From positions 1 to 21,650 of the IMG/VR virus record IMGVR_UViG_3300044980_000002: a stretch of DNA of 21,650 bases; one strand, 5' to 3'. The notes beneath the pieces were generated by a model that was not told where the DNA came from, did not search any database, and was given only the letters and a program-made list of their open reading frames with translations. The number at the start of each line of letters is the position of its first letter. The stretch's first letter is position 1. This DNA comes from a virus. Made by a program: the position numbers and the translations under genes. Shown here piece after piece: positions 1 through 21,641 of this stretch.

Positions 1-27
1 CTATGTTCCTTCCCCCATTCCCTCCTT

Positions 28-68
28 AGTTTCCTAGTTTCCTCCCCTTACGCAGGAAACAGGAAACT
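28..68. repeat. GTTTCCT/AGGAAAC dyad (iteron-like hairpin) inside IR-L
   Basis: Two tandem AGTTTCCT units (28-35, 36-43) face AGGAAAC (54-60) and AGGAAACT (61-68). They could form a stem of 15 bp with one bulged A at 36 and a 10-base loop (44-53). No T-run follows on either strand, so it is not a convincing terminator. Its centre lies about 60 bp upstream of the predicted +1 at 108, a common place for activator binding, so a protein-binding site is the likeliest reading. An identical copy lies at 20941-20981. Confidence 0.7.
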
Positions 69-92
69 TTCGCTAGCCAATGACTGTAGGTA

Positions 93-107
93 TGCTATAT
101 TGGGGAA
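93..107 (+). promoter_or_regulatory. Extended -10 promoter in IR-L reading toward the 108-308 gene
   Basis: TGCTATATT at 93-101 fits the extended -10 form TGnTATAAT with one mismatch (hexamer TATATT at 96-101). No good -35 box is at the right distance, as is usual for extended -10 promoters. Counting from the hexamer, +1 falls at 108, the A of the ATG. The only Shine-Dalgarno-like run, GGGGA at 102-106, is one base from the ATG and would not be transcribed, so the message would be leaderless. The promoter is inferred from sequence alone. Confidence 0.5.
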
Positions 108-308
108 ATGAATTTACAAGAGCTAATAGAGTTCGCACAGCAGATGCAAAGATTGCATGGCGACTTAGAAGTGTTTTTTAAAATGAGTTCGGATAGGTTT
201 GTATCTATAGAAGAATTCGCCGTCTACACTGATCCAACAGACAACACAAATATCTTCGTATTGCAATCAGATATAATTGAACGTAGCCATTTGAAAGTTA
301 TTAAATAA
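108..308 (+). CDS. Small phage protein of unknown function (66 aa)
   Basis: I do not recognise the family. The 66-residue acidic product looks like a real small phage protein: a helical start (LQELIEFAQQMQRLHGDLEVFF) followed by a likely strand-rich part with a DPTDNTNIFVL stretch. No signal peptide or membrane segment is visible. Its ATG is the first codon outside the inverted repeat. No normally spaced ribosome site exists, so translation may be leaderless from the repeat promoter. It is the only plus-strand gene left of the late block and converges on rusA; the two stop codons overlap (301-303 and 306-308 within an 8-bp overlap), with no terminator between them. Late transcription would therefore run antisense through it. 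Confidence 0.6.
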   Translation: MNLQELIEFAQQMQRLHGDLEVFFKMSSDRFVSIEEFAVYTDPTDNTNIFVLQSDIIERSHLKVIK

Positions 309-660
309 GCCCCATATTAATTACTATAACGCCATCTAAAGGCATGCAACGCCATATATTAATCTTGTCCACCTGATTGTCATCCACGTATATCTTCGCA
401 TGCTGTAAGGCATCTAGAATCGGTTTTAAGATATTATCTAAATCCCTCCTACGCTTGTCAGGCGGATAGGCTTCAATCAATAAAGCTACCCGATCCCCAC
501 TCTCAAACATTCCCCTATTCCTATAAGCAAGAGAAATAACTTCATCCCTATAGTCAATGCCTTTCTGGGTAATGAAATATCTTCCACCGTTTCTACGCCA
601 ATAGGTATTAATGCTTGGAGGCCAAGAAGTTTTAATGGTTAGAGTTTTGTTATCAGGCAT
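301..660 (-). CDS. rusA: RusA-type Holliday junction resolvase
   Basis: The 119-residue product matches the RusA family in length (E. coli RusA has 120) and motifs. The key acidic and basic residues of E. coli RusA (D70, D72, K76, D91) have counterparts at D73, D75, K79 and D94 with identical spacing, in the segment YPPDKRRRDLDNILKPILDA and the later YVDDNQVD. The N-terminal PPSINTYWRR is also typical. RusA dimers cut four-way DNA junctions symmetrically. In phages they resolve branched replication or recombination DNA, which must be unbranched for packaging. Its ATG overlaps the stop of the membrane-protein gene upstream (TAATG), so translation is probably coupled. It is the last gene of the late operon, away from replication genes, a position that suits clearing branches at packaging time. 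Confidence 0.93.
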   Translation of the reverse strand: MPDNKTLTIKTSWPPSINTYWRRNGGRYFITQKGIDYRDEVISLAYRNRGMFESGDRVALLIEAYPPDKRRRDLDNILKPILDALQHAKIYVDDNQVDKINIWRCMPLDGVIVINMGLI

Positions 661-890
661 TAGGGGATGACTTCCTTAGCGGCTGGGGGCTGAGTGCCTT
701 CGATCTCTGCTGCGAGCTTTGAGAAGTTTACATCAATGCCTTCAGCGTGGAGGATTGTTTCGGCAGCTCTTTCGATCGGAACTTCGGTGGTTCCATATTT
801 AATTATACAGAGACCGCCGATAACGAAACATAGAAGTATGAGTACCATTATCAGCGGCTCAAACATTCCCAGAACTTTCCTTGTTCTCAT
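660..890 (-). CDS. Small single-span membrane protein, holin- or spanin-like
   Basis: The 76-residue product has a short basic N-terminus (MRTRKVLG), one hydrophobic segment at about residues 12-30 (LIMVLILLCFVIGGLCII), then a soluble tail with TEVPIERAAETILHAEGIDVNFS. A tail of the type 'PIE.AAE.I...GIDV..S' recurs in small phage membrane proteins next to lysis genes. It lies just downstream of the lysozyme-like gene, overlapping its 3' end by 32 bases, which supports a lysis role: a holin that opens the inner membrane, or an inner-membrane spanin. A second start, ATG at 866 (68 aa), has an AAGGA site at longer than ideal distance; it would remove the basic N-terminus and most of the overlap. 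There is no lipobox and no second membrane gene. The membrane segment is clear, the precise role is not. Confidence 0.6.
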   Translation of the reverse strand: MRTRKVLGMFEPLIMVLILLCFVIGGLCIIKYGTTEVPIERAAETILHAEGIDVNFSKLAAEIEGTQPPAAKEVIP

Positions 891-1368
891 GAATTATCCA
901 TCCCTGTATATCTTGGGCTGCTCTTACAAACGCTTCTACGCTTGCTGCCCCTTCACTTGTATTGTAATACTTTTTGTAATGGTTGGCTTGAGCTTCCACA
1001 TCTTTATAGGATGGAATAGGTTCATGAATCATGTAGTACTTTGTCCTGGCTATGAGGCAGTTCAAAGACATATCGCTTATAACAGTGATTGGATTGTTCG
1101 GAAGGTTGACACGCTCTGTATAAGAAACAATGGCGTTATATAAGGCATGAGCGTTAGTTTGTAGATATCTTCTAACGTCTTCATAGGTTGCCCATTCTAC
1201 TTGGAAAAATCCTAGAGCTGGCCCTTCAGGTAATTGCTTGAGGTGTGTGAGTTTAGATTCAACCATGGCGGTACATACCATTAGGTACATAGCATCCAGT
1301 GAATACATGCCACAAGCCTTTAGAGCTGGCTCTAGTATTAAATTCACAAATTGATGTGGATTTATCAA
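859..1368 (-). CDS. Lysozyme/transglycosylase-like peptidoglycan hydrolase (putative endolysin)
   Basis: The 169-residue product has the pattern of a phage lysozyme-like fold: VCTAMVESKLTHL (candidate catalytic Glu37), then PEGPALGFFQVEWATYEDV (residues 47-65), where GPALG.FQ.E is the family hallmark. Later come conserved helices with SLNCLIARTKYY and YKKYYNTSEG (about 131-140), which is also typical. It should cleave the glycan strand. No signal peptide is seen, so release would need a holin, possibly the adjacent membrane protein. It could instead be virion-borne, since the large ejection protein here shows no hydrolase domain; the position beside the membrane gene favours lysis. The start is TTG at 1368, directly after the TAA of the gene upstream; the family's first helix (FVNLILEPALKA) needs this start rather than the ATG 20 codons later. 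Confidence 0.75.
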   Translation of the reverse strand: MINPHQFVNLILEPALKACGMYSLDAMYLMVCTAMVESKLTHLKQLPEGPALGFFQVEWATYEDVRRYLQTNAHALYNAIVSYTERVNLPNNPITVISDMSLNCLIARTKYYMIHEPIPSYKDVEAQANHYKKYYNTSEGAASVEAFVRAAQDIQGWIIHENKESSGNV

Positions 1369-1554
1369 TTAGCGCATCTTGCTGGCTTTGCCAGATTGAA
1401 TCTTCTTCTCAGTGGCTTTTACGCCAGCTTTAGATTCAGCCTTGCGACCTTCTTTTTGAACTGCGGCACGTTCTTTAACGCCACGTCTGCCGTTCTTCTC
1501 ATCACCTTTTCCGCCGCGTGGTGACTTCATCTCTTTAGAGTTATCAGTTTTCAT
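1369..1554 (-). CDS. Small lysine-rich basic protein, unknown function
   Basis: The 61-residue product is almost wholly charged: runs such as SPRGGKGDEKNGRRG and KEGRKAESKAGVKATEKK, with few hydrophobic residues. It is probably disordered and strongly basic, which would suit nucleic-acid binding or packing inside the head, but no family is recognised. The ATG overlaps the TAA of the gene upstream (TAATG), a sign of coupled translation, and its TAA touches the TTG of the lysozyme-like gene. It belongs to a group of four small genes (1369-2174) between the fibre cassette and the lysis genes. Confidence 0.7.
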   Translation of the reverse strand: MKTDNSKEMKSPRGGKGDEKNGRRGVKERAAVQKEGRKAESKAGVKATEKKIQSGKASKMR

Positions 1555-1685
1555 TACTTGCTCCGTTTAGGTTTAACTTTTTCTGGCAGCTTTTTTCCTT
1601 TCGGAGTTTCCTTCTGCCATCTCTCAGCCATAGCCGGATGGTTTGCGTACATCCACCGTCTTTGATCTTCACTAACAAATGGCAT
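1554..1685 (-). CDS. Short conserved phage protein with QRRWMYANHP motif (43 aa)
   Basis: This gene is below common length cut-offs. Translated from the ATG at 1685, it begins MPFVSEDQRRWMYANHP, continues AMAERWQKETPKGKKLPEKV, and ends in a basic KPKRSK tail. The pattern (P-F-x-S-x-x-Q-R-R-[WY]-M-[YF]-A-x-H-P ... W-x-K-E-T-P) is a well-known tiny phage protein of unknown function, often found among virion and lysis genes. AAGGAG lies 8 bases before the ATG, at the very end of the DUF6582-like gene upstream, and its TAA overlaps the next ATG (TAATG). The start, ribosome site, family match and exact fit between neighbours make it convincing despite its size. Confidence 0.88.
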   Translation of the reverse strand: MPFVSEDQRRWMYANHPAMAERWQKETPKGKKLPEKVKPKRSK

Positions 1686-1690
1686 ATCAA

Positions 1691-1897
1691 TTACTCCTTG
1701 TCAAGCATCGCATGCGCTTTAGCTCGAACACGGTTAGCCTCAGAGACAGATATATGCCCATTCTCCAATGATTGCGTAACTCTGCCCAAAGCATTACGAG
1801 CATGCGCCTTGTCCTCGATTGGATACTTCCTCTCTCTTGGTAATGCGAAATCACTCTTAGGTAAACTCTCGCGCTCTCCATAAGTAAGCTTAGACAT
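1691..1897 (-). CDS. DUF6582-like small phage protein
   Basis: The ATG at 1897 is chosen over an upstream in-frame start at 1954 because GGAGG sits 6 bases before it, inside the last codons of the gene upstream, and the longer form would overlap that gene by about 56 bases. The 68-residue product contains RESLPKSDFALPRERKYPIEDKAHARNALGRV, the core pattern (LP.S.FALP..R.YPI.D..HARNALARV) of a small domain catalogued as DUF6582, widespread in phages and prophages, of unknown function. In longer relatives it is joined to other phage domains; here it stands alone. It is the second of four tightly packed small genes and was probably translated with them. Confidence 0.82.
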   Translation of the reverse strand: MSKLTYGERESLPKSDFALPRERKYPIEDKAHARNALGRVTQSLENGHISVSEANRVRAKAHAMLDKE

Positions 1898-1898
1898 T

Positions 1899-2174
1899 TT
1901 AGGCCTCCATATCTTCAGTAAATCTTGACTCTCTTGGCTTATCCTCTTTTGCAAGCCGTTCGTTCATGGCACGTTCACGGGTAGCACTAGGGATGGCATA
2001 GTTAGTTCTGCCAGGCTTAGCTAGCCCCATCTTTGGCTCTTGGCTCTTAACCCGAAGCCCATCAATAGATTCAACCGCTCTGCGATTATCTTCCTGATGA
2101 ACTGGGTAGCCAGAACTATTAGGACGTGCGCCATTGTTTTTAGGTTTACTGTCTTTGTACATATCTTCTTTCAT
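1899..2174 (-). CDS. Small hydrophilic, probably disordered protein, unknown function
   Basis: I do not recognise this 91-residue product. It is rich in K, R, E, N and P with few hydrophobic residues (MKEDMYKDSKPKNNGARPN at the start, ERLAKEDKPRESRFTEDMEA at the end), so it is probably largely unfolded on its own. No signal or membrane segment is seen. The ATG at 2174 has AAGGAG six bases upstream, a strong site. Its TAA is one base before the ATG of the DUF6582-like gene, whose ribosome site lies inside this gene's last codons, so the two are probably co-translated. Confidence 0.72.
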   Translation of the reverse strand: MKEDMYKDSKPKNNGARPNSSGYPVHQEDNRRAVESIDGLRVKSQEPKMGLAKPGRTNYAIPSATRERAMNERLAKEDKPRESRFTEDMEA

Positions 2175-2183
2175 GATAACTCC

Positions 2184-2732
2184 TTAACCTGTAATGCTAT
2201 TCAAATAAAAATTACCGGAAGTAATAACGCCGGTATCCACATAGAATTGTAGTGCATTTACATTAGCCATCGTATAGAAGCCGCTTCCAGAGAATGTAAA
2301 GTAATATGTAGTAAATGCTAATCCAGTATAGGTGAGCGCAGAGTAACCGCTATCGGGAGAGAATAATTTAATATTGAAAAATGCTGGACTACTGCTTGGT
2401 GCGTTCTCATTGATGAATAGTTGAATGAATGAAACATTGGTGCCACCGGTTCCGCTTACTGAGGCTGAGCCAATGAAAGGTTGATCTATAAACCCCCATC
2501 CATAATTATTACCGCTATCATATGACACGCCATTGTTAGTAGAAAATCTAACCTTCAATGAAGCATTAGTGCTTAATACAAGATTATCAATAAAGATATC
2601 ATAAGATGAATTAACGGATGATAAATTTACAAAAGAAATATTAGCACTGCTGGACGCTACTTGCTTTTGAACAAGGTTATAGCTGCCACCACTTGATCCA
2701 CCGCCAGTTGTAAAGCTTGAGGTATCGCTCAT
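2184..2732 (-). CDS. Putative receptor-binding or fibre-tip protein (182 aa)
   Basis: The 182-residue product starts with a Gly/Ser linker (TTGGGSSGGSYNLVQKQ) and continues as an aromatic, Ser/Thr/Asn-rich beta-type domain (about residues 20-182) with no Cys, a composition typical of phage fibre tips. Its core, from 'SSSANISFVNLSS..SSYDIFI' to the glycine-rich 'SYDSGNNYGWGF', resembles the C-terminal part of the 2973-3638 product ('SASSSLEFASLFSSTYYQYLFLF' to 'ATAGGYVATNYQW'), so the two are probably diverged relatives. Unlike that protein it lacks the MTTYNN... adaptor at its N-terminus. The ATG overlaps the stop of the gene upstream (ATGA), with GGTGGGAA just before. A carbohydrate- or receptor-binding role is inferred from composition and position. 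Confidence 0.55.
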   Translation of the reverse strand: MSDTSSFTTGGGSSGGSYNLVQKQVASSSANISFVNLSSVNSSYDIFIDNLVLSTNASLKVRFSTNNGVSYDSGNNYGWGFIDQPFIGSASVSGTGGTNVSFIQLFINENAPSSSPAFFNIKLFSPDSGYSALTYTGLAFTTYYFTFSGSGFYTMANVNALQFYVDTGVITSGNFYLNSITG

Positions 2733-2968
2733 GTTATTCCCACCTTTGCTTCTAATGCTTTGATTCTATCCTCGATTGATACAACTGCTTTCTTTGCCTC
2801 AATCTCTAAAGCTTGTCTTGCTTCATTGGCTGCCCACCTTGCCAGCTCTTGTGCTTCTTCTTCCGCAGTTAATTCTATTTGCTTAACTACCGGCGAATGT
2901 TCTGCTATTGGCAATAAAAGATTAGCAGCTTTTACAGCGCAGTCATAAACCAAATTGTGTAATGCCAT
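2729..2968 (-). CDS. Small coiled-coil protein in the fibre cassette
   Basis: The 79-residue product is predicted helical. A first part (MALHNLVYDCAVKAANLLLPIAE) is followed by a long charged alanine-rich helix (ELTAEEEAQELARWAANEARQALEIEAKK) and ends in SIEDRIKALEAKVGIT, a coiled-coil pattern. Short genes of this kind often sit between fibre genes, where some act as assembly chaperones; that role is only an inference here. AGGA lies seven bases before its ATG, overlapping the stop of the preceding fibre-like gene, and its stop overlaps the next ATG as ATGA. No membrane segment is evident. Confidence 0.6.
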   Translation of the reverse strand: MALHNLVYDCAVKAANLLLPIAEHSPVVKQIELTAEEEAQELARWAANEARQALEIEAKKAVVSIEDRIKALEAKVGIT

Positions 2969-2972
2969 AATA

Positions 2973-3638
2973 TTATCCTGCTGTTATTCCAAATACATCT
3001 ATAATGCCAGAAGCTATCGTGCTGGTATTCATAAAGAATTTAATCTTTGTGAAAGTTGCTGCTGGTTGAAACCATGCGCCATTGGCGGCGATGACTTGTG
3101 ATCCAGTAGCACCATAGTTCCATTCAAGATTCATTGAAGCACACGCTGGATTGCTAGAACCATTCGGCCCAGAGATTAGCATCTGTCCATTCAACCCACC
3201 ATTTGTCGATGTACTTGAAAGCCCCCATGAACCGCCAGAATTAGTTAGTGTTGCTTGCGTATCGCTTGTACTATTAGAATTTTCAATCGTACCACCAACC
3301 CAACAGTTACTAGCCCATTGGTAATTGGTTGCAACATAACCTCCAGCCGTAGCGACTTGGCACTGTAAATATGCTTGGTTAGTCGTAGGCACTATCTGCC
3401 TAAATAAAAATAGATACTGGTAATATGTAGAGCTAAAAAGACTAGCAAATTCAAGGGATGAACTAGCACTAGCAGTTAATGTGGCTAAAGCTACAACAGC
3501 ACCTCCTCCACCCCCACTTCCGTTACTTGCAGCCGTAATTAAACCAGCTGCGTTAACAGTTAGATTAGTGTTGGTATAACTACCGGCACTCACACCCGTA
3601 GGATTGGCAGTGTTTGTGGCGTTATTGTATGTAGTCAT
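2973..3638 (-). CDS. Fibre-like protein with shared N-terminal adaptor and its own C-terminal domain (221 aa)
   Basis: The first 45 residues (MTTYNNATNTANPTGVSAGS, then YTNTNLTVNAAGLITAAS) are nearly the same as in the adjacent 152-residue product, and end in a GSGGGGG linker. The rest (about 50-221) is a Ser/Thr/Asn/aromatic-rich beta domain with 'EFASLFSSTYYQYLFLF' and several Trp residues. It is different from the 152-residue protein's C-terminus but distantly like the 2184-2732 product. The 'SYTN.N.TV.A.G.ITAAS.G' segment is a common connector in phage fibres. The likely role is a receptor-binding or fibre-associated subunit carried on a shared attachment module. AAGGTG precedes the ATG. 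The adaptor similarity is seen directly; function is inferred. Confidence 0.65.
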   Translation of the reverse strand: MTTYNNATNTANPTGVSAGSYTNTNLTVNAAGLITAASNGSGGGGGAVVALATLTASASSSLEFASLFSSTYYQYLFLFRQIVPTTNQAYLQCQVATAGGYVATNYQWASNCWVGGTIENSNSTSDTQATLTNSGGSWGLSSTSTNGGLNGQMLISGPNGSSNPACASMNLEWNYGATGSQVIAANGAWFQPAATFTKIKFFMNTSTIASGIIDVFGITAG

Positions 3639-3646
3639 ATTTCACC

Positions 3647-4105
3647 TTATGCGTAAGCAATATTACCCTGTGTAGCATATGCAGTAAATGTAGTATTAGC
3701 TGTCACACATCGAATTGTTACACAGTCAAATTGGTTTGAAGATGTAAGCGTTCCAGATGTTGTAGTACAGGTTGCAGTTCCGAAATGGATTGTCTGGCCT
3801 GATGCTTCAGCTACTTGCCAACCACCTGAACCAGCTAGCCCACCAATGATTGTGTATTCATCGCCTACCGCCGCAGTTGCAGGGAGTGTGAATACTGTTT
3901 GGCCGCCAGTGTAATTATTTACATACACGTTACCGGCAGCAAGGGTTGCAGTTGAAGTTGTTTGATTTACAACCGTACCACTCCCACCGCTGGATGCTGC
4001 GGTAATTTGACCGGCGGCATTAACGGTAATGTTAGCATTTGTATAAGAACCAGCAGAGACTCCAGAAGGTATGGAGGTATTCGTACTGTTATTGTAAGTG
4101 GTCAT
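3647..4105 (-). CDS. Fibre-like protein duplicating the main fibre's C-terminal domain (152 aa)
   Basis: Residues 1-42 are the MTTYNN...GSYTNANITVNAAGQITAAS adaptor shared with the 221-residue product. Residues about 46-152 match residues 378-480 of the main fibre: VFTLPATAAVGDEYTIIG against AFTLPTTAAIGDIMEIAG, and SGTLTSSNQFDCVTIRCVTANTTF against TGSLASSNTGDCIRLLCTATNTNW, both ending near-identically in N(I/L)(A/S)YA. This beta-rich domain is probably a fibre tip. The gene looks like a detached and diverged copy of the fibre's last domain on its own adaptor, either an accessory receptor-binding subunit or a reservoir for recombination. AAGGAG sits seven bases before the ATG and overlaps the fibre gene's stop. 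Confidence 0.7.
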   Translation of the reverse strand: MTTYNNSTNTSIPSGVSAGSYTNANITVNAAGQITAASSGGSGTVVNQTTSTATLAAGNVYVNNYTGGQTVFTLPATAAVGDEYTIIGGLAGSGGWQVAEASGQTIHFGTATCTTTSGTLTSSNQFDCVTIRCVTANTTFTAYATQGNIAYA

Positions 4106-4117
4106 TTAAGGTCTCCT

Positions 4118-5560
4118 TTAAGCGTAACTCAAGTTTCCGAAATCTCCGAGGACGATCCAATTCGTATTTGTTGCAGTACATAATAATCTTATGCAATCAC
4201 CGGTGTTGGAGGATGCTAGTGATCCAGTTGCGCCAAGGCTGGTTGCAACTTTACCAAACTGAATTTGTTGGCCAGCATTTTGAATAATGCTCCAGCTATT
4301 ATTATATCCTGCAATTTCCATTATATCGCCAATAGCCGCAGTTGTTGGTAATGTGAAAGCAACACTGCCACCATTAACAATATAGTTAACACCGCTAACC
4401 ATTTGCGTTGCACTAGATACTGTTTGCCATGAGCCTGTCACTGGGCTTGGTTGCGGAATTACCTTACCACGCCAATTAAAGAAGTAACCCATTGTAGTGG
4501 TAAGTGCATTGAATAATGGTTTCTCCACTGAGCCTGGCGTGGTAGGAGCGGTCGCTGTGAGCGCACCGGCTACGGCATCACTTAAGAAATTAATTCCAGG
4601 TGTTAGCGGATTTGTTGGATTTACGAGGCCTTCTGTGGTTAGGATAAATGAATTGACATTGATAACATTTGTAACCATACCAACTGCTTCGGCGGTTGCT
4701 AGAGTATTTGCTTGTGCTAATGCCCAGGCTGAGCCAGTCCAGTAGAGGATTTGATCTAAAGTGAATCCATGCGCCACCTGATTAACAGTAGTGGTTGTTG
4801 CGCTACCATTGCCACCACCACCAGAACCATTAGATGCAACTGTGATTCTACCATAAGCATCAACTGTTATATTGGCATTAGTATAGCTGCCAGGAGTTAA
4901 TCCGCCGATCGCCGGTAAATCGACACCAATAATACCCGTTGAAGTTACTGGGTTGGTTCCACTTAAAGCAAGAGTAGATGTAGTTAGGCCAACAGAAGTT
5001 ACACTGCCTCCTCCTCCACCACCTGAAGGAATTGGAACTGCAATGATTGCATCGTTCCCTGCATCTTTTTCCCAGATATAAGTTGGAGGAAGATAAGGGA
5101 TAATATTATCTGTAATATCGTTAGTATTTAGTGTTTCACTGTTATTGTATTTAATTGACAGATAATTATCACATAACAATCTTTCTTGAATCATCATGAT
5201 AATACGATTGAAATCTTCATTTAACATTGTTGGATTGAAGTTCAAGGTATTGTATAGGTTCATTCGATCAACCGGAGTCATCCGCGTAATCGTAATGATA
5301 TCGCCAGCATTAACTACAAATGCAGGATTGAAATTAACTTGAATATAGTAATTACTACCGACGTATATGACGGTGTAGTTAATTGGATCTACAAGCTGTA
5401 AGAAATCATTAGCCGGTGTTCCACCAGGTCTGTAATAAACAGTAACATCAGTTGTAGCGTCTGCCGTCCAATTAGTCGAGAATTGTAATTGGTTAGGGGA
5501 TGCAATGATTTGCGTCCAAGGCAATGTTAAATTAATCGGTATGGCTGGACTGTATGGCAT
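4118..5560 (-). CDS. Main tail fibre protein (480 aa)
   Basis: Residues 1-130 resemble the T7 gp17-type N-terminal part that docks fibres on the tail, including 'ITITRMTPVDRMNLYNTLNF' and 'LNEDFNRIIMMIQE'. A poly-Gly linker (180-185) leads to VTSVGL repeats and the connector 'PGSYTNANITVDAYGRITVA' (223-242), then a second glycine linker (about 245-251). Next is a common fibre domain (about 258-365: 'YWTGSAWALAQAN', 'TPGINFLSDAVAGALT', 'GYFFNWRGKV'). The last about 100 residues form the domain duplicated in the neighbouring 152-residue protein. At 480 residues it is shorter than T7 gp17 (553), and it lacks an obvious intramolecular chaperone. It follows the ejection-protein genes, the usual place in T7-like phages. 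Receptor binding is inferred from architecture. Confidence 0.82.
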   Translation of the reverse strand: MPYSPAIPINLTLPWTQIIASPNQLQFSTNWTADATTDVTVYYRPGGTPANDFLQLVDPINYTVIYVGSNYYIQVNFNPAFVVNAGDIITITRMTPVDRMNLYNTLNFNPTMLNEDFNRIIMMIQERLLCDNYLSIKYNNSETLNTNDITDNIIPYLPPTYIWEKDAGNDAIIAVPIPSGGGGGGSVTSVGLTTSTLALSGTNPVTSTGIIGVDLPAIGGLTPGSYTNANITVDAYGRITVASNGSGGGGNGSATTTTVNQVAHGFTLDQILYWTGSAWALAQANTLATAEAVGMVTNVINVNSFILTTEGLVNPTNPLTPGINFLSDAVAGALTATAPTTPGSVEKPLFNALTTTMGYFFNWRGKVIPQPSPVTGSWQTVSSATQMVSGVNYIVNGGSVAFTLPTTAAIGDIMEIAGYNNSWSIIQNAGQQIQFGKVATSLGATGSLASSNTGDCIRLLCTATNTNWIVLGDFGNLSYA

Positions 5561-5563
5561 TTT

Positions 5564-8500
5564 CTAATCCCTATCTACCCATGAGTAATAATCTGCATCT
5601 TTGCGAGTCTCAGGTAAATCAGTCTTCTTCAGACCCTCGCGTAATATATAATCTGGTATCAATGAAAGGCTTACTGGCAATACGTTGGCGAGCTTTACGA
5701 TTCCGGCTTGACTGTATTTTCCATCCATAAACATTTGCCCTACATCAATCACATTCTGCATGTAACCGCCTATTGGCCCACCAGCAACACCTAGGAAGCT
5801 TCTGCGTCTAAACTTGTCAGTCTTCCATCTATCAAGAAATGGTGGATCTAATAAAGCCGTTGCAGTATTCAAAAGGTCTACATGATAACCAAGAACACCG
5901 CTATCAGATGCGGCTTGCCAGAACCATTGATCCCAAGCCTTCTCATCCTCAACTTCAAATTCCTCACCCTTAGACCATTTCCTAAAAGGTTCAATCCATG
6001 CTCCATAGTATAACATCATTCCATAAGCTGCCACTCTAGAACCATCTGGTTGCTGAAATAATGGCAATAGGAATTTGTTAAAGGCGGCATAGTTATAACC
6101 GAGGAATTGGGCCGGTAAGCCTAGGATTGGATCTCTAGTCCAAAACGGCTTATCAAATACCCCAGGCTTTAAAATAGATCCGGTAATATCATTCTGAATC
6201 GCACGCCTCATCTGACTTTGAAGCCCAGCATCTTCCCATAGCCACCAGTTACTTACATGCCCACCAAAAGCTTTATAACCTTTAGCTCCCTTGTAGGCAG
6301 CAATAAACTTGTCAGCATCCGCAGGATTGATACCGTTCATCAATAATCTATCAATGCCAGCCTTATTTAACTTGCCCCTAGAGTGTGCCAACAAATCAGC
6401 CATAACTCTAGATTGTGTAATACCAGCAGATATATCCTGTAATGAATTAGTAATAAGATTCGTGCCATTAATCACCGATGAAAAATTAGAACTCTTTTGT
6501 AAGAATGTTGACCATGCTCCGCCAACCTCCGATACAGTACCTTCGTAAAGAGAATTGCTCAAGCGTTGCATGCCCATCTCAAGCCCTACACGTGCATGCG
6601 TTGCACCTTCTCTAAATTCTGCTCTAGCTGTATCAGAACCAATCCTTCTAAACAATGGCAATAAACCACCAGTAATCGTAGGCCATAATCCCTGCTTATA
6701 AGCCATCGCTATTGCATCAACCCCTTGCAATAAAGGCACACGCTTCAGCATACTAATGGCTGTTAGATTGCGTGCAGCCCTGCCGAACTTAATCCTATCT
6801 GGGTGCGCTCCATTGTTGCCAATGAAATAGTTATAGCCATTCTCGATAAGATTTTTATTCTCATTGAATTCTTTTTCAATCTTGTCAATCTTAGCATCTC
6901 TTGCTTTAGTTCTAGTTGGAAACTCTGCCTCAATGCGTTCAATGCGCGAAGCCTTTTCAGCGGTTAATTCTTTTACAATATCTGATACACCATTGCGCCA
7001 ATCAGCTTCAGTGAATACTTGTTTTAAAGCAATCTTCTTGCCAAGATTCTTTGCATACAAATCAACCATTGCTGGCATATTGGTGCTTAGGAATCCATTC
7101 TCAAGAAGGGTTAGATCACGAACCATAAAAGTTCTTGCCAAGGTTGGATTGGTTACTGTGCCACCTGATAGAAAGCCCGTCATCTCTTGCGTGATTTGCT
7201 CTGGAGTCATAGATAGATAAGCGTTTCTGGCATTGTCAGCATGTTCAGCCATAGCGGTCTCAGACAAGTAGACTGGACGAAACATTGCTTCTGGATCTCT
7301 ATCTCGAATCTTTGTGAGGTGATCTTCTAAAAGATACCCAGGAATCTCCCTTGACTCAATCTTAGTTAGCAATTCAGACCTAAGCTTACCAAGTTGCGCT
7401 CTAGCATTATCTAATTCATTTTGTAATATCTTACGACTCTTGCCTTTAGTATTAGGCAATCTTTCTTCCATGGTGGCGATAAAGGTTTTAAGATTCTGGA
7501 TTGGATCTTTATATCCCTTAATCAAATTATCCTGATAAGTAAACTCTTGAATCATTGTTCTGCGCCAACCATCAGGATTCCTGATTAATTCAGCCTGATT
7601 CATTATGCGTGAAGCATAGCCAACAGATGTTCTTGGAGGCAGTATATCTCCGTTGCCACCATTTAATTCTAACCATTTAGAATAAAGTGGATCAGAAAAC
7701 TCCTTCCAAATCTTTGCAGCCTCATTGACTTCCTTGATCGGGGATGGCTCACCAGAATAAATAGTCTTTAAAACCTTCGCAAAGAAACTATCTGGACTAG
7801 ACATTCCACCATCTTGCAGTCCTTTAATCACAGCACGAGCATTGTTAACCACCCCAGGCTTTAAACCCAATGATTGTACATATAAGTCCTGCAAGATAAA
7901 TCCAGTCTGTCTGCCATGCTTTGTAATATCATCTAGAATTTCTTCAACCGTTACTTCGCGTGGCAATCCACGGGCAATCCTTCCAACCACAATAGATTGA
8001 TTAGCCATCCGATTAAAGAACTTTCTAGTTACTCCATAAGTTGATGTTAAGCCTTTAAGTAAAGGCGAACCAAAGTAAGGTATTTTATTTATTACGCCAA
8101 TGAAAGGCGATAGCCCTGAAAGAACTGCACCATTATCAAGGAAGGCTTGTGCTGCCGCTAAATCTGCATCAGATACTATCTGGCCTGGAATCGCTTCAGC
8201 TATTAAGCCTTTGTAAACTTTGTTCTCATCGGTATGGATTAGAGTACGGATACCTTTGTAGTTATGATCTACAATTTCACGAGCCTTCCAAATATTTGCA
8301 GCCCTAGTTCCCAATCCAATCGCTCGGCCAGCACCATAGAAAGCAAGACCAAAAGCAGTATCACGTAAACCATTAAGAACAGCCTGATCAACTTGAGACT
8401 CAAGTTTACCCCCTTCCACGATCGCTTCATGTAAGAAACTCTGTGCTGCAATCTTTGGAGCCGCCTTTAATGTTCCATATACAACATGCCCAAGAACCCC

Positions 8501-12005: not shown

Positions 12006-12006
12006 A

Positions 12007-15132: not shown

Positions 15133-15148
15133 TATGCCCCCATAAAGT

Positions 15149-15170
15149 AGAGGGAGCTTGCGCCCCCTCT
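15149..15170 (-). other. GNRA-loop hairpin between head and tail genes
   Basis: On the minus-strand transcript this reads as a 9-bp stem (one G-T pair) closed by a GCAA tetraloop: AGAGGGGGC, GCAA, GCTCCCTCT. It begins six bases after the head-fibre gene's stop and ends 16 bases before the GTG of the adaptor gene. The stem is strong but only a weak T-stretch (CTTTAT) follows. Partial termination, or an RNA stability or processing element that lowers tail-gene expression relative to head genes, is likelier than full termination. Confidence 0.75.
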
Positions 15171-15176
15171 ATATGA

Positions 15177-16055
15177 TTAGGCCGCAGGCACAATTCTGTA
15201 CCAACAATCCCAAGTCCAAGTACCATCACCAGTTGTAAACGCACCTGTGGCATTTGACAAGTATACGCCTTGGTTAACAACAGTTGCAGTTGCAGTCACA
15301 GCGGTAACACTTGTTAATGCTAAGAAGCTATTAGCAGCGATACCATTGATTGTTGCAGCGGCAACAGTTTGAGATGCTGCAACACCAGCACCGTGAACGG
15401 TGTTTTCGTATTGCAATGATACAACACCACCAGCTGCGTATTGAGCAGCTACGAATGTCATATTCAACCAGAACTTATCAATCACGATTGCTTTGTTCGC
15501 GCCTGGTGCTGCAACGATTTGAATTGGAGTTGCATACATTCCATTCCATTGTGCGGCAGTGATCGAACCACTCGCATAGTTTACTACAGTTGCAGGAACT
15601 CCAAGAGTTGTACCACTGAATGCTAAAGCATTACCTAGAGTGATTTCTTCAACATTGGCTGTACCGCCAGTTGGATTACCAATCAAAGTATCAGCAGATG
15701 CAGTTTGAATCTTCGCATATGTTACTGCATTATTAGAAATGTTTGCAGTACCAACGACAGATGTTGCAAAGCCAACAGTTTGAGTAGTAATGGTTGGAGG
15801 ATTAACAGTGTTGTTAATTGTTGCTACTTGTAACAGCACAGTTGAATCAGAGCCTACGCAGAAAATCAAATCATTTACACATAGCACGTATGTTTGTGTA
15901 GTGAAATAGTTTGCTGCTTCAATAGTTGCGACAGCATCAGTTGTACTCATATATGAGAATATCTGAGGAGCCGCAGTATTAGGAGTTACAGTTGTATCTA
16001 GACCAGCGTTCATGGCAACAGTCTGTCTAGAGAAGTTGGTTAATAGAAAGGCCAT
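15177..16055 (-). CDS. Head fibre / capsid decoration protein (292 aa)
   Basis: The gene follows the capsid gene by one base, with AGGAGA eight bases before its ATG. Residues about 30-75 (FSYMSTTDAVATIEAANYF ... VNDLIFCVG) are a small beta domain common in capsid-associated podovirus proteins. Residues 106-153 (ISNNAVTYAKIQTASADTLI, GNPTGG.ANVEEITLGNALAF) are a connector otherwise familiar from tail fibres. The rest (about 155-292) is a Val/Ala/Thr-rich beta domain ending in WTWDCWYRIVPAA. A capsid-bound domain plus a fibre-like shaft and tip suggests a head fibre or cementing protein. Position right after the capsid matches cementing proteins in BPP-1-like phages. What the exposed part binds cannot be told. 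Confidence 0.72.
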   Translation of the reverse strand: MAFLLTNFSRQTVAMNAGLDTTVTPNTAAPQIFSYMSTTDAVATIEAANYFTTQTYVLCVNDLIFCVGSDSTVLLQVATINNTVNPPTITTQTVGFATSVVGTANISNNAVTYAKIQTASADTLIGNPTGGTANVEEITLGNALAFSGTTLGVPATVVNYASGSITAAQWNGMYATPIQIVAAPGANKAIVIDKFWLNMTFVAAQYAAGGVVSLQYENTVHGAGVAASQTVAAATINGIAANSFLALTSVTAVTATATVVNQGVYLSNATGAFTTGDGTWTWDCWYRIVPAA

Positions 16056-16056
16056 A

Positions 16057-16887
16057 TTATAAATCTCCTGTAGAAGTTACAGCTAATGTACCGCGATCAT
16101 CAATTACAACTGAACCAGCACTGAATACGCCGTTAGCTAACCAGGAGGTTAATACTGGAACATAGTTCACTTCAGCGCGGAAGTTTGCACCGACACCAAA
16201 ACCAACAGCCATTTTATGCCAAGCAAGAGCGGTTGTTACGCCACCACTTGAAGGCAATCCACCTTCTGTCATTTGAGGGATGATGACCAAGTTTATACCT
16301 AAGTATTCTTTTACGAACCCTCTATCTAACACTCTGTTTTGAGTGAAGAAGGTTGACACGAATTGGTCTGCTGCAAGCAAGCTTCTAAATTGTGCCGCAG
16401 TCATTGCAACCCATCTGTCTCCCAAAGGAACACCGTTGTTTTCGAAGAATTCCATTATCTGTGTATAGCCAGTATATGAGAAGGCTGTACCTAACGTGAT
16501 GGTTTGTCCGACATCGGCATTGATAGCGTTGATTGTTATTTGATCAGATCTACGACCCATAGCTTGTCCGATCGCAATCACAGATTCCATTGTCGCATCA
16601 AAGTTCACAGTCAATGCTTCAACATCATCCACAACAACCGGAGTTGTATATTTTTGAAGTTGAGCAGAAGGAACGTAGATACCTGGATTTTGTGGGGTAA
16701 CTGCCTGAGCATATCCGGTAGGTACAGAGATTACCTGACCCATTTTACGGAACTGAACAGAGCTACCTATGACGTTTTCTTTACGTCTTACGGCATCGCG
16801 TAGTAAGAAACCTTCAGAACGGTATTGAATTTTAACGAGCTGATCGTACTCGATCTGGGCCGCTGGACTTAAATTAAACTGTGCCAC
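16057..16887 (-). CDS. Major capsid protein (276 aa)
   Basis: The 276-residue product reads as an HK97-fold capsid protein: an N-terminal helix with IEYDQLVKIQYRSEGFLLRDAV, an extended-loop region (VQFRKMGQVISVPTGYAQAV), the spine-like helix region ('QAMGRRSDQITINAI', about 108-122), then 'DRWVAMTAAQFRSLLAADQF' and 'VKEYLGINLVIIPQM', typical of podovirus capsids that lack an immunoglobulin extension. It sits between scaffold and head-fibre genes, as expected. The start is GTG at 16887 with AGGGGA six bases upstream, and it follows the largest spacer inside the operon (16888-17027), which may raise its expression. No N-terminal prohead protease or delta domain is evident, fitting a separate scaffold. 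Confidence 0.9.
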   Translation of the reverse strand: MAQFNLSPAAQIEYDQLVKIQYRSEGFLLRDAVRRKENVIGSSVQFRKMGQVISVPTGYAQAVTPQNPGIYVPSAQLQKYTTPVVVDDVEALTVNFDATMESVIAIGQAMGRRSDQITINAINADVGQTITLGTAFSYTGYTQIMEFFENNGVPLGDRWVAMTAAQFRSLLAADQFVSTFFTQNRVLDRGFVKEYLGINLVIIPQMTEGGLPSSGGVTTALAWHKMAVGFGVGANFRAEVNYVPVLTSWLANGVFSAGSVVIDDRGTLAVTSTGDL

Positions 16888-17027
16888 TATATTTCCCCTA
16901 AAAAGAAAATTAAACCAAATGCTTAATCTTTATCTCTTTTGGGCTTGTGGCTAGTGCAGTTGTCCATTAGGGCTGCGGCCAGTGAAGTTCTCCAGCTCAA
17001 TAAAGGCTTGACTTAAGCGTAGCACTA
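16888..17027 (-). other. 140-bp spacer upstream of the capsid gene
   Basis: This is the longest non-coding gap within the late operon. Read on the minus strand, it has interrupted complementary blocks around 16971-16987 and a T-rich run (TTTTCTTTTT) directly before the capsid ribosome site AGGGGA. I find no convincing -35/-10 pair and no stable terminator stem just before the T-run. A 14-codon open frame starting MDNCTSHKPK lacks a ribosome site. A capsid-specific leader is plausible but not shown. Confidence 0.4.
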
Positions 17028-17759
17028 CTAACTAGTTTTTTCAACATATCCATGCGAAGTATCTCTACGTGCCGCATCTTGAAGTCTACGCTTGTAATCA
17101 TTCCTATATTTTTCATCATTCTGATAATTTCTAAAGTTCTCAGGCTTAGATAATTCTGCTTCCAAGTCTGCAATAGATTCACTGCTTGCGCCATTAGGCT
17201 CTGAACCATTCGGTATGTTTGGTGTTGTTGACCCTATCATCTTCGCTCTAACCTCCATCATTGCTTTTACTGCTTTAGCTGATCCCATACTCTCAAATAA
17301 AGCTTCTGCCGCCTCAGTACTTAAATTAGCCTTTGCCCAATTATTCAAAGTCTCAATCTGCTTAGCTCCATCTGGCCCAAGCTTTGCCATCTCAGCATCA
17401 GCATTGGGAGCCAAACTCTGCCCGTACTTAGTAAAACATTCTAACATCTTTGACATTACTTCTTGCGGTACACGCTTCTCTTTAGCATAGGCTGTCAGCT
17501 CTTTAAATGCTTCATGGTTCTTATCAAACACTTCGCCATGTTCACCGAAATCATAATCTTCAACCGGTGCAGTTCCCATCTTCTTTTCTAGTTCCGATAA
17601 ACTAGTGAGCGCATCTTTCACTGTTTTAAATTTCTGTGGAAACCATTCTGGCCTCTCGCCAGTTGCAGCAACGCCTTCATCAATAAACCAGCTTGGTTGA
17701 TTGGCCGGTGGATTTTCCGCTGGTGGTGTTGGCTCAACATTCGGATCTACATTTTCCAT
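17028..17759 (-). CDS. Scaffolding protein (243 aa)
   Basis: The product is acidic with a Pro-rich N-terminus (VEPTPPAENPPANQPSWFIDEGV) followed by 'ERPEWFPQKFKTVKDALTSLSELEKKMG' (35-62). That pattern is highly characteristic of podovirus scaffolds, where the segment around 'RP.W.P.KFK....A...L..LEKK.G' is conserved. The middle is helical, and the C-terminal part (about 205-243) is charged and basic (YQNDEKYRNDYKRRLQDAARR), like the capsid-binding tail of other scaffolds. The protein guides capsid assembly from the portal and leaves before DNA enters. Its place directly before the capsid gene supports this. The ATG follows the upstream stop by two bases, with GGGGCAG before it. Confidence 0.88.
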   Translation of the reverse strand: MENVDPNVEPTPPAENPPANQPSWFIDEGVAATGERPEWFPQKFKTVKDALTSLSELEKKMGTAPVEDYDFGEHGEVFDKNHEAFKELTAYAKEKRVPQEVMSKMLECFTKYGQSLAPNADAEMAKLGPDGAKQIETLNNWAKANLSTEAAEALFESMGSAKAVKAMMEVRAKMIGSTTPNIPNGSEPNGASSESIADLEAELSKPENFRNYQNDEKYRNDYKRRLQDAARRDTSHGYVEKTS

Positions 17760-17761
17760 AA

Positions 17762-18088
17762 CTACTGCCCCTTCAATTCTTCTGCTAGGTGATTCTTGTG
17801 CGCGGTTACAACCAACTCAATATTATATAATTGCTTTCTAGCCCCCTCAAGACTTGCCATATGCAAAGCATAATTAGGAGCCGTAGCATCTGCAAACATA
17901 TTATTTAATTGTTCTTTAGTTTCCTTTAACCATTTCTTGCCGTCATCCGATGTAAATAGTTTAAATGTTAATGCTTGATATTTGAAATGCTTGTTATCAA
18001 AATCTTGTTTAAAAGATTCATTATACTCTTGAAAGTAATCATCTGGTTGCGGATGAAATTCATCATAGACATATTTATCTTCAGACAT
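17762..18088 (-). CDS. Bbp19-like small phage protein (108 aa)
   Basis: The core FKLFTSDDGKKWLKETKEQL (42-61) and the later 'EGARKQLYNIELVVTAH' (81-97) fit the pattern of Bbp19-like proteins named after Bordetella phage BPP-1: an 'F..lf.t..G..vL..L' segment, then an EG.R.....I helix. These small proteins lie between portal and scaffold genes in many podoviruses and their role is not established. Residues 1-30 are a hydrophilic extension rich in Asp, Glu, Tyr and Phe. The gene begins three bases after the portal stop. No good ribosome site is near the ATG (GGAG is about 15 bases away), so translation may depend on that of the portal gene. Confidence 0.72.
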   Translation of the reverse strand: MSEDKYVYDEFHPQPDDYFQEYNESFKQDFDNKHFKYQALTFKLFTSDDGKKWLKETKEQLNNMFADATAPNYALHMASLEGARKQLYNIELVVTAHKNHLAEELKGQ

Positions 18089-18091
18089 CTA

Positions 18092-19732
18092 TTATTGCAA
18101 TGCTCCAGGTGGTTGCCCTTGTGTGGCGGCAGCTGCTTGCATAGCATTTTGCTTGTCTTTTAATTGCTGAGCGATTGCTTTCATCTCAGGCTGCGTATTA
18201 ATTAAACGCATATCCATCTGTAACCATTCTGCAATTATCCATGGAGCTTGTTCTGCATTAACTAATAGCTGTGCTACGTCTGGCCCCATCACGCCTTGAA
18301 TGACTTGGATGTATTGGGTAAAGATAGATAAGTCTTGTTGGCCTCTAGCAAATGCTAATGGTGAACGGTATTGGAAACTTATATCTGCGCCATTTAATTG
18401 AGGCTTTGCAACAAGGCCAAGCTTATCAAGATGGTGCATTGTTACTTCAAGGATTGGCCATAAGAATTCTTGTTGAAGCCGTGTAAAGAGTGGGCCGATC
18501 TTCTCAGCCAATGCTTGTTGTCTAATGACAAGTTCAGTAGCAGTTCTAGGTGGTGCATCGACTGGGCCGAGCGGATCTGCAAACATCAAATTATTAATCT
18601 GCGCCCTTAAATCTGCCAACGTAACTTGACCAAATGCCGGATTGCTAGAATCAGGAAGTGGTATCAAAGGCACTTGACCATTAGTTCCTATTGGAGCAAT
18701 AGGTATAACAGCCATTGGACGTAGACGGAAAGTATGAGGATTGAACACGTTATCAGAAAAGCCCATATAAGGCCTAAAAACATTGAGGTTCGCACTGGCG
18801 AATTCAATCTTAGCCATTTCATTTGCACGCATGATCGCAGGGAGCGCGAACATGACTGGCCCTCTCCCCCACCATTCGTTATTTGTTTTTTGGAAACGCC
18901 AAACAATACCAGGATTGATTTCCAATTCTTTTTCAAATAATGGTTTACCGCCTTGGATTCCGCTACCTTGAGCAGCACCATTACCTGTGCCACCACCAGG
19001 GGAATTATACAAAGAATAACGGTAAGGGTATTTCTCTCCATAATGATACGTGACACCTTCTACTAATCTTGTAGTAGCGTTTGGCCCTTGTACTATAGAT
19101 TGTCGCAAGTCATCATTGATTACGGCTTCTGGCCATCTTAAATTAATTTCATCAACGCGAACTTGTTTCCAGGTTCTAAACCATGAACGGACTTTTCCGT
19201 CTATTGATTCTTCAATGGCTAGTTGATCTACAGGAATTGAAGTATAGAGTAATGGATTTTTAAAATCGGCCTGAGCATTGCACACAAGGCAAGATGTACC
19301 GACAGCCAAGTCAAAGTAAGTTTCACCCACTGACACATCAAAATTAGAACGATGAATATACTTAAAGACTTCACGCATATAGTTAGACAATATCTTTTGT
19401 GCTTCAGTTCTAGTTTCCTCATCCAAGTTTGGATCTGAATCATTAACCACCAAATAACCCCATTGCACTTGAGGAGGTGTCATCACCGTATGAATCTTTG
19501 ATACAAATGAATTAGTAGCTTCAACTGCCGTTAAGTCATAAAGTCTGGCATTATTAAATGCACCCTGGTATTCAACATCTCTATAGAATCTATTTCTAAA
19601 GGGAACAGCATAATAAAATGATGCTTCTAATATGGATAACCATTGCATGAATCTTGCATGAGCGCGTGAATATCGCGCATTGAATTCCATGCTTCGAGTC
19701 ATACCGGATGGACTTAAATCTTCACTTGCCAT
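18092..19732 (-). CDS. Portal (head-tail connector) protein, T7 gp8-like (546 aa)
   Basis: The length is almost that of T7 gp8 (536). Typical features are the N-terminal 'RYSRAHARFMQWLSILEASFYYAVPF', the 'FVSKIHTVMTPPQVQWGYL' stretch, and the strongly conserved region at about 385-425 (DAPPRTATELVIRQQALAEK, IGPLFTRLQQEFLWPIL), which forms helices facing the DNA channel in this family. Twelve copies form the ring at one vertex through which DNA is packed and ejected. The gene lies between the 122-residue membrane-like protein and the Bbp19-like gene. Its ATG overlaps the upstream stop (TAATG). The C-terminus is Gln/Ala-rich (QNAMQAAAATQGQPP), typical of connector tails. Confidence 0.93.
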   Translation of the reverse strand: MASEDLSPSGMTRSMEFNARYSRAHARFMQWLSILEASFYYAVPFRNRFYRDVEYQGAFNNARLYDLTAVEATNSFVSKIHTVMTPPQVQWGYLVVNDSDPNLDEETRTEAQKILSNYMREVFKYIHRSNFDVSVGETYFDLAVGTSCLVCNAQADFKNPLLYTSIPVDQLAIEESIDGKVRSWFRTWKQVRVDEINLRWPEAVINDDLRQSIVQGPNATTRLVEGVTYHYGEKYPYRYSLYNSPGGGTGNGAAQGSGIQGGKPLFEKELEINPGIVWRFQKTNNEWWGRGPVMFALPAIMRANEMAKIEFASANLNVFRPYMGFSDNVFNPHTFRLRPMAVIPIAPIGTNGQVPLIPLPDSSNPAFGQVTLADLRAQINNLMFADPLGPVDAPPRTATELVIRQQALAEKIGPLFTRLQQEFLWPILEVTMHHLDKLGLVAKPQLNGADISFQYRSPLAFARGQQDLSIFTQYIQVIQGVMGPDVAQLLVNAEQAPWIIAEWLQMDMRLINTQPEMKAIAQQLKDKQNAMQAAAATQGQPPGALQ

Positions 19733-20100
19733 TAGCCTAAACTCTCATTGTTAGATTGAATACCTGGCTCTAGAAATCCACGAGGAGCTTGGAACTTTCT
19801 ACGCAGTCCACGGGCAAGACCTTCATTAATCTTGGCTCGCTCTTTAGCAAGGGCAGCACTGGTTTTATCTTGTTCGGCACGAAGTCTTTTTTGCATGGCT
19901 TCGTTTTCACGGCGTTGATCATCTGCTATTCGCTGACCACGCTTAGCAGCCTTAGATGAATCAATTTGACTTCCGATAGTAGCACCGGCTGCTGCGCCTC
20001 CAGCTACCAGAAGACCAAGGGATGCACCGCCGGTAAATGGAGCTGCTGCAATAGCTGCTGCTGTACCTAATGCTGCCCCAAGAAAACCCCACTTTGCCAT
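19732..20100 (-). CDS. Small Gly/Ala-rich hydrophobic plus coiled-coil protein (122 aa)
   Basis: Residues 5-45 are a Gly/Ala-rich hydrophobic stretch (GFLGAALGTAAAIAAAPFTG, then GLLVAGGAAAGATIG) with glycine-zipper spacing, followed by a strongly charged helix (about 50-98: AAKRGQRIADDQRRENEAMQ, KRLRAEQDKTSAALAKERAK). Proteins of this build are frequent beside portal or terminase genes in podoviruses, and some are minor virion components; the function is not known to me. The hydrophobic part could insert in membrane, so a role in ejection is possible, or in lysis if it behaves as a holin. GAGG lies about nine bases before the ATG, and the stop overlaps the portal ATG. Confidence 0.68.
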   Translation of the reverse strand: MAKWGFLGAALGTAAAIAAAPFTGGASLGLLVAGGAAAGATIGSQIDSSKAAKRGQRIADDQRRENEAMQKRLRAEQDKTSAALAKERAKINEGLARGLRRKFQAPRGFLEPGIQSNNESLG

Positions 20101-20110
20101 TTTAATTACC

Positions 20111-20242
20111 TCACAAGTCTATGTGTACGTAGATTGTCTTTTCTTCCCATTCATCTTTGGGGATGTAATGGTCTACAAATTTAACTAGCCAGGGGAGCTT
20201 TATTTTCTTGCGTAGTTGGAGAAGTTGTGATCTGATACTCAA
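20111..20242 (-). CDS. Overlooked 43-aa gene overlapping the small terminase 3' end
   Basis: The 80-bp gap after the terminase gene is filled by an open frame with protein-like content, overlapping the terminase gene by 62 bases. From TTG at 20242 it starts MSIRSQLLQLRKKIKLPWLV and ends KTIYVHIDL, with KFVDHYIPKDEWEE between, and stops with TGA 10 bases before the next ATG. GGAGG lies about nine bases before the TTG, within terminase codons. A basic helical start and an acidic, aromatic second half are visible; no family is recognised. The exact fit in the gap and the ribosome site favour a real gene; the TTG start and short length count against it. Confidence 0.5.
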   Translation of the reverse strand: MSIRSQLLQLRKKIKLPWLVKFVDHYIPKDEWEEKTIYVHIDL

Positions 20243-20789
20243 GTTCCCTTTCCTCCATCTTCTTCAATCCCTGCTTCAATTCATTAATCTCATCTTGTAA
20301 GTTACATACCTCAAGAGCGCGTAACCCAATATTGATTGATTCCATTATCTGTTTAATTTGTGCAGAAGTAAAATCGCCAGCAGCAGCCTGAATCATAATC
20401 TGTTCGTACTGCTGGATAGGCGTATCTTTCGGATTAACAAATAATGAAACCGTGTTACCACTACCAAAGTTCTTTTTATACAGTTGCTGCCAAGACATTA
20501 CATCGAACTTGTCATCCTCATCTTCGGGTTCCCACTCGGTTCTAATCTTCATCCAAGCAATCTTGCCCACCTCTTTACCAAGCATTACAGCTTCCCTAAA
20601 CATAGGGCATGTCTGCCATGCAGTAAATCTCTGACGGCTAATGCCAATCTTTAAACAGAACTCTGATATGCCTTCGTTATTACTAAACATATCTATGATT
20701 AGTGGACAGTGAATATCAGCATTGTATTGAACATTGCTTTTGATTTGCTCATAGAGAACGTCACCAAGCGTAGTAATCTTTGCAGCCAT
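20181..20789 (-). CDS. Terminase small subunit (202 aa)
   Basis: The first gene of the late operon. Residues about 37-60 (NNEGISEFCLKIGISRQRFT) are a helix-turn-helix of the kind small terminases use to bind the packaging site, followed by 'MFREAVMLGKEVGKIAWMKI', a segment typical of this group in which a sensing helix-turn-helix is followed by 'A...G.......W'. The C-terminal third is a coiled coil (ALEVCNLQDEINELKQGLKKMEEREL), suited to oligomerisation. It recognises phage DNA and recruits the large ATPase subunit, whose gene is not in the window. TAAGGA precedes the ATG. It lies 112 bases downstream of the predicted start of transcription in the right repeat. Confidence 0.82.
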   Translation of the reverse strand: MAAKITTLGDVLYEQIKSNVQYNADIHCPLIIDMFSNNEGISEFCLKIGISRQRFTAWQTCPMFREAVMLGKEVGKIAWMKIRTEWEPEDEDDKFDVMSWQQLYKKNFGSGNTVSLFVNPKDTPIQQYEQIMIQAAAGDFTSAQIKQIMESINIGLRALEVCNLQDEINELKQGLKKMEERELEYQITTSPTTQENKAPLAS

Positions 20790-20808
20790 TAATTTTCCTT
20801 AAAGTTAA

Positions 20809-20843
20809 AGAGCAGGCTAACAGGTTTAAACTGCCCCTGCTCT
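20809..20843 (-). other. Hairpin in the late-operon leader
   Basis: AGAGCAGG and CCTGCTCT form a perfect 8-bp stem around a 19-base loop, which holds a smaller near-palindrome CAGGTTTAAACTG. It lies in the leader between the predicted transcription start (about 20901) and the terminase ATG, ending 20 bases before that ATG. The sequence after the stem (TTAACTTTAAGG) is not a clean T-run. It may be an attenuator, an antitermination site, or simply leader structure. Confidence 0.55.
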
Positions 20844-20900
20844 ACACAGGAACCGATACTAATTCATCTGGAAAGGACTCATTAAGTTAACAACCCTGTG

Positions 20901-20916
20901 CTTCCCCAATATAGCA
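20901..20916 (-). promoter_or_regulatory. Late-operon promoter in the right repeat (extended -10)
   Basis: Read on the minus strand, 20916-20908 is TGCTATATT, the same extended -10 as in the left repeat, with no clear -35. The predicted +1 is about 20901, the first base outside the repeat, giving a 112-nt leader to the small terminase. Along with the dyad upstream, it is the best candidate for the start of the late transcript. Inferred from sequence only. Confidence 0.55.
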
Positions 20917-21008
20917 TACCTACAGTCATTGGCTAGCGAAAGTTTCCTGTTTCCTGCGTAAGGGGAGGAAACTAGGAAACTAAGGAGGGAATGGGGGAAG
21001 GAACATAG
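20902..21008 (-). repeat. Right copy of the perfect inverted repeat (IR-R)
   Basis: This is the exact reverse complement of 1-107. Its inner end is bounded by the mismatch at 20901. Its outer end is not defined, because the left copy is cut by the window start. It lies in the divergent control region between the late operon and the plus-strand genes at 21248, with its promoter facing the late operon. Confidence 0.97.
20941..20981. repeat. GTTTCCT/AGGAAAC dyad inside IR-R
   Basis: This is the mirror copy of the dyad at 28-68: AGTTTCCT (20941-20948), GTTTCCT (20949-20955), then AGGAAACT twice (20966-20981). Relative to the predicted late start at 20901 its centre lies about 60 bp upstream. Confidence 0.7.
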
Positions 21009-21183
21009 GGGAGAGAGGGGGGTGTGCTGGTGGGATGCAGGAGAGAGTTCTGGCACTCCGGAGATTCCTAAAGCCTAGAAATCCGGTCTTCCCCCTCCCT
21101 GCATCTAACGCATCCAACAATCCCTATCGAGTTCTCTACCTTAATAGTCCTTTAGAGCTAATCTTAATAAATATATTTGATAT

Positions 21184-21437: not shown

Positions 21438-21641
21438 ATGACTAAGAAACAAAAAAGAGAGTGGGCAATCAATAAAGCTGTCAGCGTATTAACCTGTGAC
21501 AATCCCATACCAATGCTAGGGCCAATGCAGAAGCTTGCAGCTAAGCTGGATGCTATGGAGTTAGCAGATATTGGGGTTATTATAGCAAGTGAGTATAGCC
21601 CAGAAGGTAACGCTAGATGGCAAGATTTGATGGGGGTTTAG
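21438..21641 (+). CDS. Small phage protein, unknown function (67 aa)
   Basis: The 67-residue product starts with a basic MTKKQKREWAINKAVSVLTC and continues as a likely helical protein (MQKLAAKLDAMELADIGVII, then ASEYSPEGNARWQDLMGV). No recognised family, signal or membrane segment. A GGGG run lies six bases before the ATG. It follows the preceding gene by one base and is itself followed directly by a possible GTG start at 21642, cut off by the window end, so the plus-strand operon probably goes on. Confidence 0.65.
   Translation: MTKKQKREWAINKAVSVLTCDNPIPMLGPMQKLAAKLDAMELADIGVIIASEYSPEGNARWQDLMGV

Follow-up and report, generated by a model that had tools for sequence, protein, structure and literature searches.

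What does it mean that a block of virion genes in a viral contig is enclosed by two identical copies of one sequence in inverted orientation? The question arises from the window, by which we mean the whole stretch of 21,650 bases that was analysed. Its inverted repeat, here called R, has a left copy at 1-107 (plus strand) and a right copy at 20902-21008 (minus strand), each 107 nt long, 100% complementary to one another and separated by 20,794 nt. The sequence-only reading had claimed a perfect inverted repeat of at least 107 bp, and both a repeat search and a letter-for-letter script check confirmed that it is exact. When the window was shuffled 30 times by mononucleotides, exact inverted matches were no longer than 21 nt, and therefore R cannot be attributed to chance; the runner-up inverted pair within the window reaches 25 nt at 80%. 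We regard R as a real sequence feature, ordinary in kind, and most likely a duplicated promoter module.

The virus record is identical to the window, a single contig that holds only these 21,650 bases, and base 1 is thus a contig end, as the earlier reading had cautioned. The left copy is consequently cut at this point and its outer end lost, so that 107 bp is a minimum and R may be longer. The additional claim that the flanks of the two copies are unrelated can be judged only where the record offers sequence, which is inside both copies and outside the right one. Beyond the right copy, phage DNA with ORFs continues for at least 642 bp. A linear genome with inverted terminal repeats was considered and rejected, because the right copy is internal and is followed by these 642 bp. 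Phages phi29 and PRD1 share with the window the presence of inverted copies, in PRD1 of about 110 bp, but theirs are terminal.

The gene block between the two copies

According to PHROGs and Pfam scans, the minus-strand block at 301-20789 encodes a virion of the T7 type. The virion genes, all on the minus strand, are those for the portal (phrog_332), a scaffold-like protein, the major capsid protein (phrog_3437), tail tubular A- and B-like proteins (phrog_394 and phrog_376), internal virion proteins (phrog_418 and phrog_342) and tail-fibre-like proteins; it is the connector, tubular proteins A and B and the internal virion proteins (phrog_332, 394, 376, 418 and 342) that place it among virions of this type. 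The proposal that R brackets the whole late gene block was thus broadly right, with the amendments that no large terminase was recognised within the 21,650-base window and that R also encloses a RusA gene, small genes and one plus-strand ORF. In two distant relatives, MEP301 and Vibrio 1.254.O, the large terminase is encoded upstream of the portal. Rfam and tRNA scans were empty.

The first gene of the late operon (20181-20789, minus strand) encodes a protein of 202 aa, the homologues of which sit directly before the portal in relatives. The homologue in the contig L005 matches the Sf6 small terminase family of Pfam, weakly (E 1.7e-5; 25.3 bits, below the cut-off of 27), and the name terS-like that is used here is fair but unproven. 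Between this gene and the right copy lies a leader of about 112 nt (20790-20901, minus strand) with an AAGGA site and a strong predicted hairpin, GAGCAGG...CCTGCTC, which is followed by a T-rich stretch and is possibly an attenuator. At the far end of the block, profile scans revealed a RusA-type Holliday junction resolvase (301-660, minus strand), convergent with an ORF at 108-308. The end opposite terS also contains a gene for a protein of 169 aa (859-1368; phrog_3108), which is encoded on the same strand as the terS-like gene. In the related contig L020, a homologue of this protein (32% identity) is encoded at 273-743, next to terS on its upstream side and in divergent orientation, indicating that the gene order at the block ends is not fixed in the group.

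Composition of the repeat and adjacent gene starts

From its outer to its inner end, R is composed of part of a pyrimidine-rich tract, a hairpin and an extended -10-like site. The tract (20982-21024 on the minus strand; purine-rich on the plus strand) runs across the outer edge of the right copy at 21008/21009. The hairpin is predicted at 28-68 (plus strand) in the left copy, with 15 paired bases and one bulge, and contains GTTTCCT/AGGAAAC motifs, two per arm and four in all; the same hairpin lies at 20941-20981 (minus strand) in the right copy. The two copies of R contain 8 of the 12 AGGAAAC sites of the window, in the whole of which 2.4 would be expected. The sequence-only reading had described an inward-facing promoter-like element in each copy, and such an element was indeed found at 74-101 (plus strand) and, in identical form, at 20908-20935 (minus strand), where it faces into the late operon. 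It is a consensus match only, consisting of TAGCCA, 16 nt and TATATT, with TG before the -10, i.e., a TGC-TATATT extended -10-like element with a poor -35. By itself, a match of this kind is no commoner than in shuffles; its interest lies in its position.

The combination of a hairpin, iteron-like AGGAAAC motifs, their enrichment and an adjacent polypurine/polypyrimidine tract would also suit an element that serves replication or packaging and occurs close to either end of the late region, where contigs would break because of its structure or because of physical genome ends; the contigs of relatives do begin just upstream of terS. However, R was not recognised in relatives, and among these only L006 has a CT tract of comparable length upstream of terS, so that we give this explanation very little credence.

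The tract of L006 nevertheless bears on the history of R. Its alignment with the tract of the right copy has a score of 34, compared with a maximum of 27 in 500 shuffles. The tract is of low complexity, and hence the alignment is to be taken as support, not as proof; because both tracts occur at the same place upstream of terS, the right copy probably occupies an old position before the late operon and is probably the native copy.

The left copy ends precisely where the ATG of the 66-aa ORF at 108-308 (plus strand) begins, 6 nt past TATATT. In the contig as assembled, each copy of R therefore precedes a correctly oriented gene, the left one ending at ATG 108 and the right one 112 nt before the ATG of the terS-like gene. 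The ORF has three weak matches to small PHROG families (E 0.02-0.12), all of which align from residue 1 with profile position 1, and its coding score resembles those of RusA and the 169-aa gene. These alignments and the gene-like coding statistics suggest that ATG 108 is probably the true start and that the ORF is probably a real gene; a protein search of viral contigs yielded no homologue.

A similar arrangement is found in two relatives, in which the sequence before terS reads TATGCTAGATT-C-ATG (L005) and TATGGTTTAGGGG-ATG (L006). The starts are supported by similar N-termini, and the start codon sits a few bases past an element of the TATGCT/TATGGT type. From these two layouts, a promoter that abuts the ATG seems to be native to this phage group. 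It should be added that the terS-like genes at L005 376 and L006 234, located a few bases after the -10-like element, apparently have no normally spaced Shine-Dalgarno motif, which suggests leaderless late transcripts.

Contig ends and the possibility of a chimeric join

The location of the left copy introduces a rival explanation, namely, that its 107 bp stem from a chimeric read, a template switch during whole-genome amplification or a misresolved assembly graph and were joined artificially at base 108, in which case the genome would have the right copy only. Usual assembler word lengths such as 99, 123 and 127 do not equal 107, a point that was not used as evidence. Several findings suit an artefact and count against a duplication: base 1 is a contig end, where chimeric joins occur; 107 bp is less than the usual read length; the perfect identity would likewise be produced by an artefact; and two copies are present in no relative, although the contigs of the relatives are incomplete and none from a close relative is known to extend as far as the left end. 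The shuffle-level frequency of the promoter-like match and the fruitless search for homologues of the 66-aa ORF likewise count against a duplication. In amplified DNA, inverted joins are known to be in excess, accounting for 406 of 475 chimeras, and 69 of these 406 link segments more than 10 kb apart (PMC1855051). Contigs of IMG/VR with inverted end repeats are often incomplete, with a high-quality share of 33.2% vs 90.0% for those with direct repeats (PMC8116208).

The window resembles the inverted chimeras of amplified or assembled metagenomic DNA (PMC1855051) in that distant segments are joined in inverted orientation at a contig end, but differs from them in that the join coincides with the boundary of promoter and start codon. 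It falls exactly between the promoter-like site and the ATG, in the productive orientation, and this layout is also that of L005 and L006. A join by chance would be improbable, with a likelihood of about 1% at most if only the ATG side is considered, an estimate of our own that was formed with the sequence already in view. Few chimeric joins made at random would hit this boundary, which argues for a real duplication; because the argument was formulated after the fact, it was discounted, and we hold it to be moderately probable that the late promoter was truly duplicated in inverted orientation and drives both the late operon and the small gene inward. An artefact is less likely but is the main alternative.

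The nearest relatives are metagenomic contigs, the portals of which are 47-64% identical, together with one contig in a Burkholderiales MAG; named phages are distant, with portals about 25-30% identical. An exact search of viral contigs with the core of R gave no match, the records of L005-L008 likewise yielded no copy of R, and no long inverted match was found in L008, L010 and L012 when examined with further pieces of their contigs. Megablast of the whole window against phages was without match. Viral contigs were also searched at the protein level, with the 1157-aa virion protein, the 169-aa protein and the ORFs at 108-308 and 21438-21641 as queries; no relatives emerged, so that none was available in which the left end of the block is covered. 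The collections searched may leave out records very near the window. The sequence-only reading had called for a comparison with related phage genomes, which was achieved for three distant ones: no inverted repeat of at least 28 bp occurs in MEP301, Hodr or Vibrio 1.254.O. No contig of a close relative is known to span both ends of the block.

The contigs of five relatives (L005, L006, L008, L010 and L011) all begin 130-400 bases upstream of the terS-like gene, which has a joint value of about 1e-4 under a crude model that lets contig ends fall at random. However, the sequences of L010 and L011 hardly differ at this end, and the two contigs start within about 10 bases of each other, which makes the evidence weaker than this value, and a further contig, L020, reaches about 800 bp upstream of terS. 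The repeated starts within about 400 bp of terS indicate that assembly stops there more than once, which could be caused by a repeat, by a structured or low-complexity tract or by a physical genome end. As support for a repeat, the shared starts are at most mild.

Possible inversion of the block and probable duplication of a promoter module

Could the two copies recombine, so that the 20.8-kb block exists in both orientations? A long perfect inverted repeat is present, the perfect identity would suit ongoing exchange, and RusA, which could resolve the junctions of a homologous recombination, is encoded inside the block; the inward promoters would serve either orientation. Nevertheless, no inverted isomer or second orientation was found, the second copy is absent from the relatives, the contigs of which are incomplete, and among the window genes scanned with PHROGs and Pfam no invertase was recognised, only RusA. 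Furthermore, the symmetry of the inward promoters implies that flipping would leave expression unchanged, and expression of the same genes in both orientations offers no evident benefit. The claim of the sequence-only reading that the late block flips therefore did not find support, and homologous recombination over 107 bp is a mere possibility. We consider an invertible block very unlikely, and the same applies to its fuller version, in which identical late-promoter modules around the whole virion block are kept identical by recombination, both orientations exist and late transcription is on in either.

The G segment of Mu with Gin and the C segment of P1 with Cin are alike in that a segment lies between inverted repeats and is in principle able to flip. 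In these systems, a serine invertase acts on dedicated crossover sites and flips tail-fibre genes, whereas here 20.8 kb of virion genes are enclosed and the scans of the window genes revealed no invertase. The literature, searched with the terms used, yielded nothing on phage genome isomers around late blocks. A further comparison is offered by the dispersed promoters of T7-like phages, in which the same promoter-containing sequence also precedes more than one transcription unit and the virion is of the T7 type, although the promoters of the window are predicted ones. In contrast to these, R comprises 107 identical bases including tract and hairpin, its copies are inverted, and the window contains no gene for a phage RNA polymerase.

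If a real duplication is assumed, R would serve the late operon as its upstream regulatory module, consisting of part of the tract, a hairpin with operator-like AGGAAAC motifs and an extended -10 promoter. The right, presumably native copy would drive the leftward late operon, starting with the terS-like gene, via the leader with its Shine-Dalgarno site. The left copy would be a recent inverted duplication that brings the promoter right up to the start codon of the small gene at 108-308, which would be read from a leaderless or near-leaderless transcript. As both promoters face inwards, expression of the late operon and that of the small gene would begin together, under the same control sequence.

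Under either explanation of the left copy, the region upstream of terS is one at which assemblies of this phage group repeatedly stop. If the left copy is an artefact, the window is a useful example of a contig end that mimics a promoter duplication. If it is real, an unrelated small gene has been drawn into the late programme by a recent copy of an entire late-promoter module, and the inverted copies of R would provide the phage with a natural substrate on which 20 kb of its genome could be flipped.
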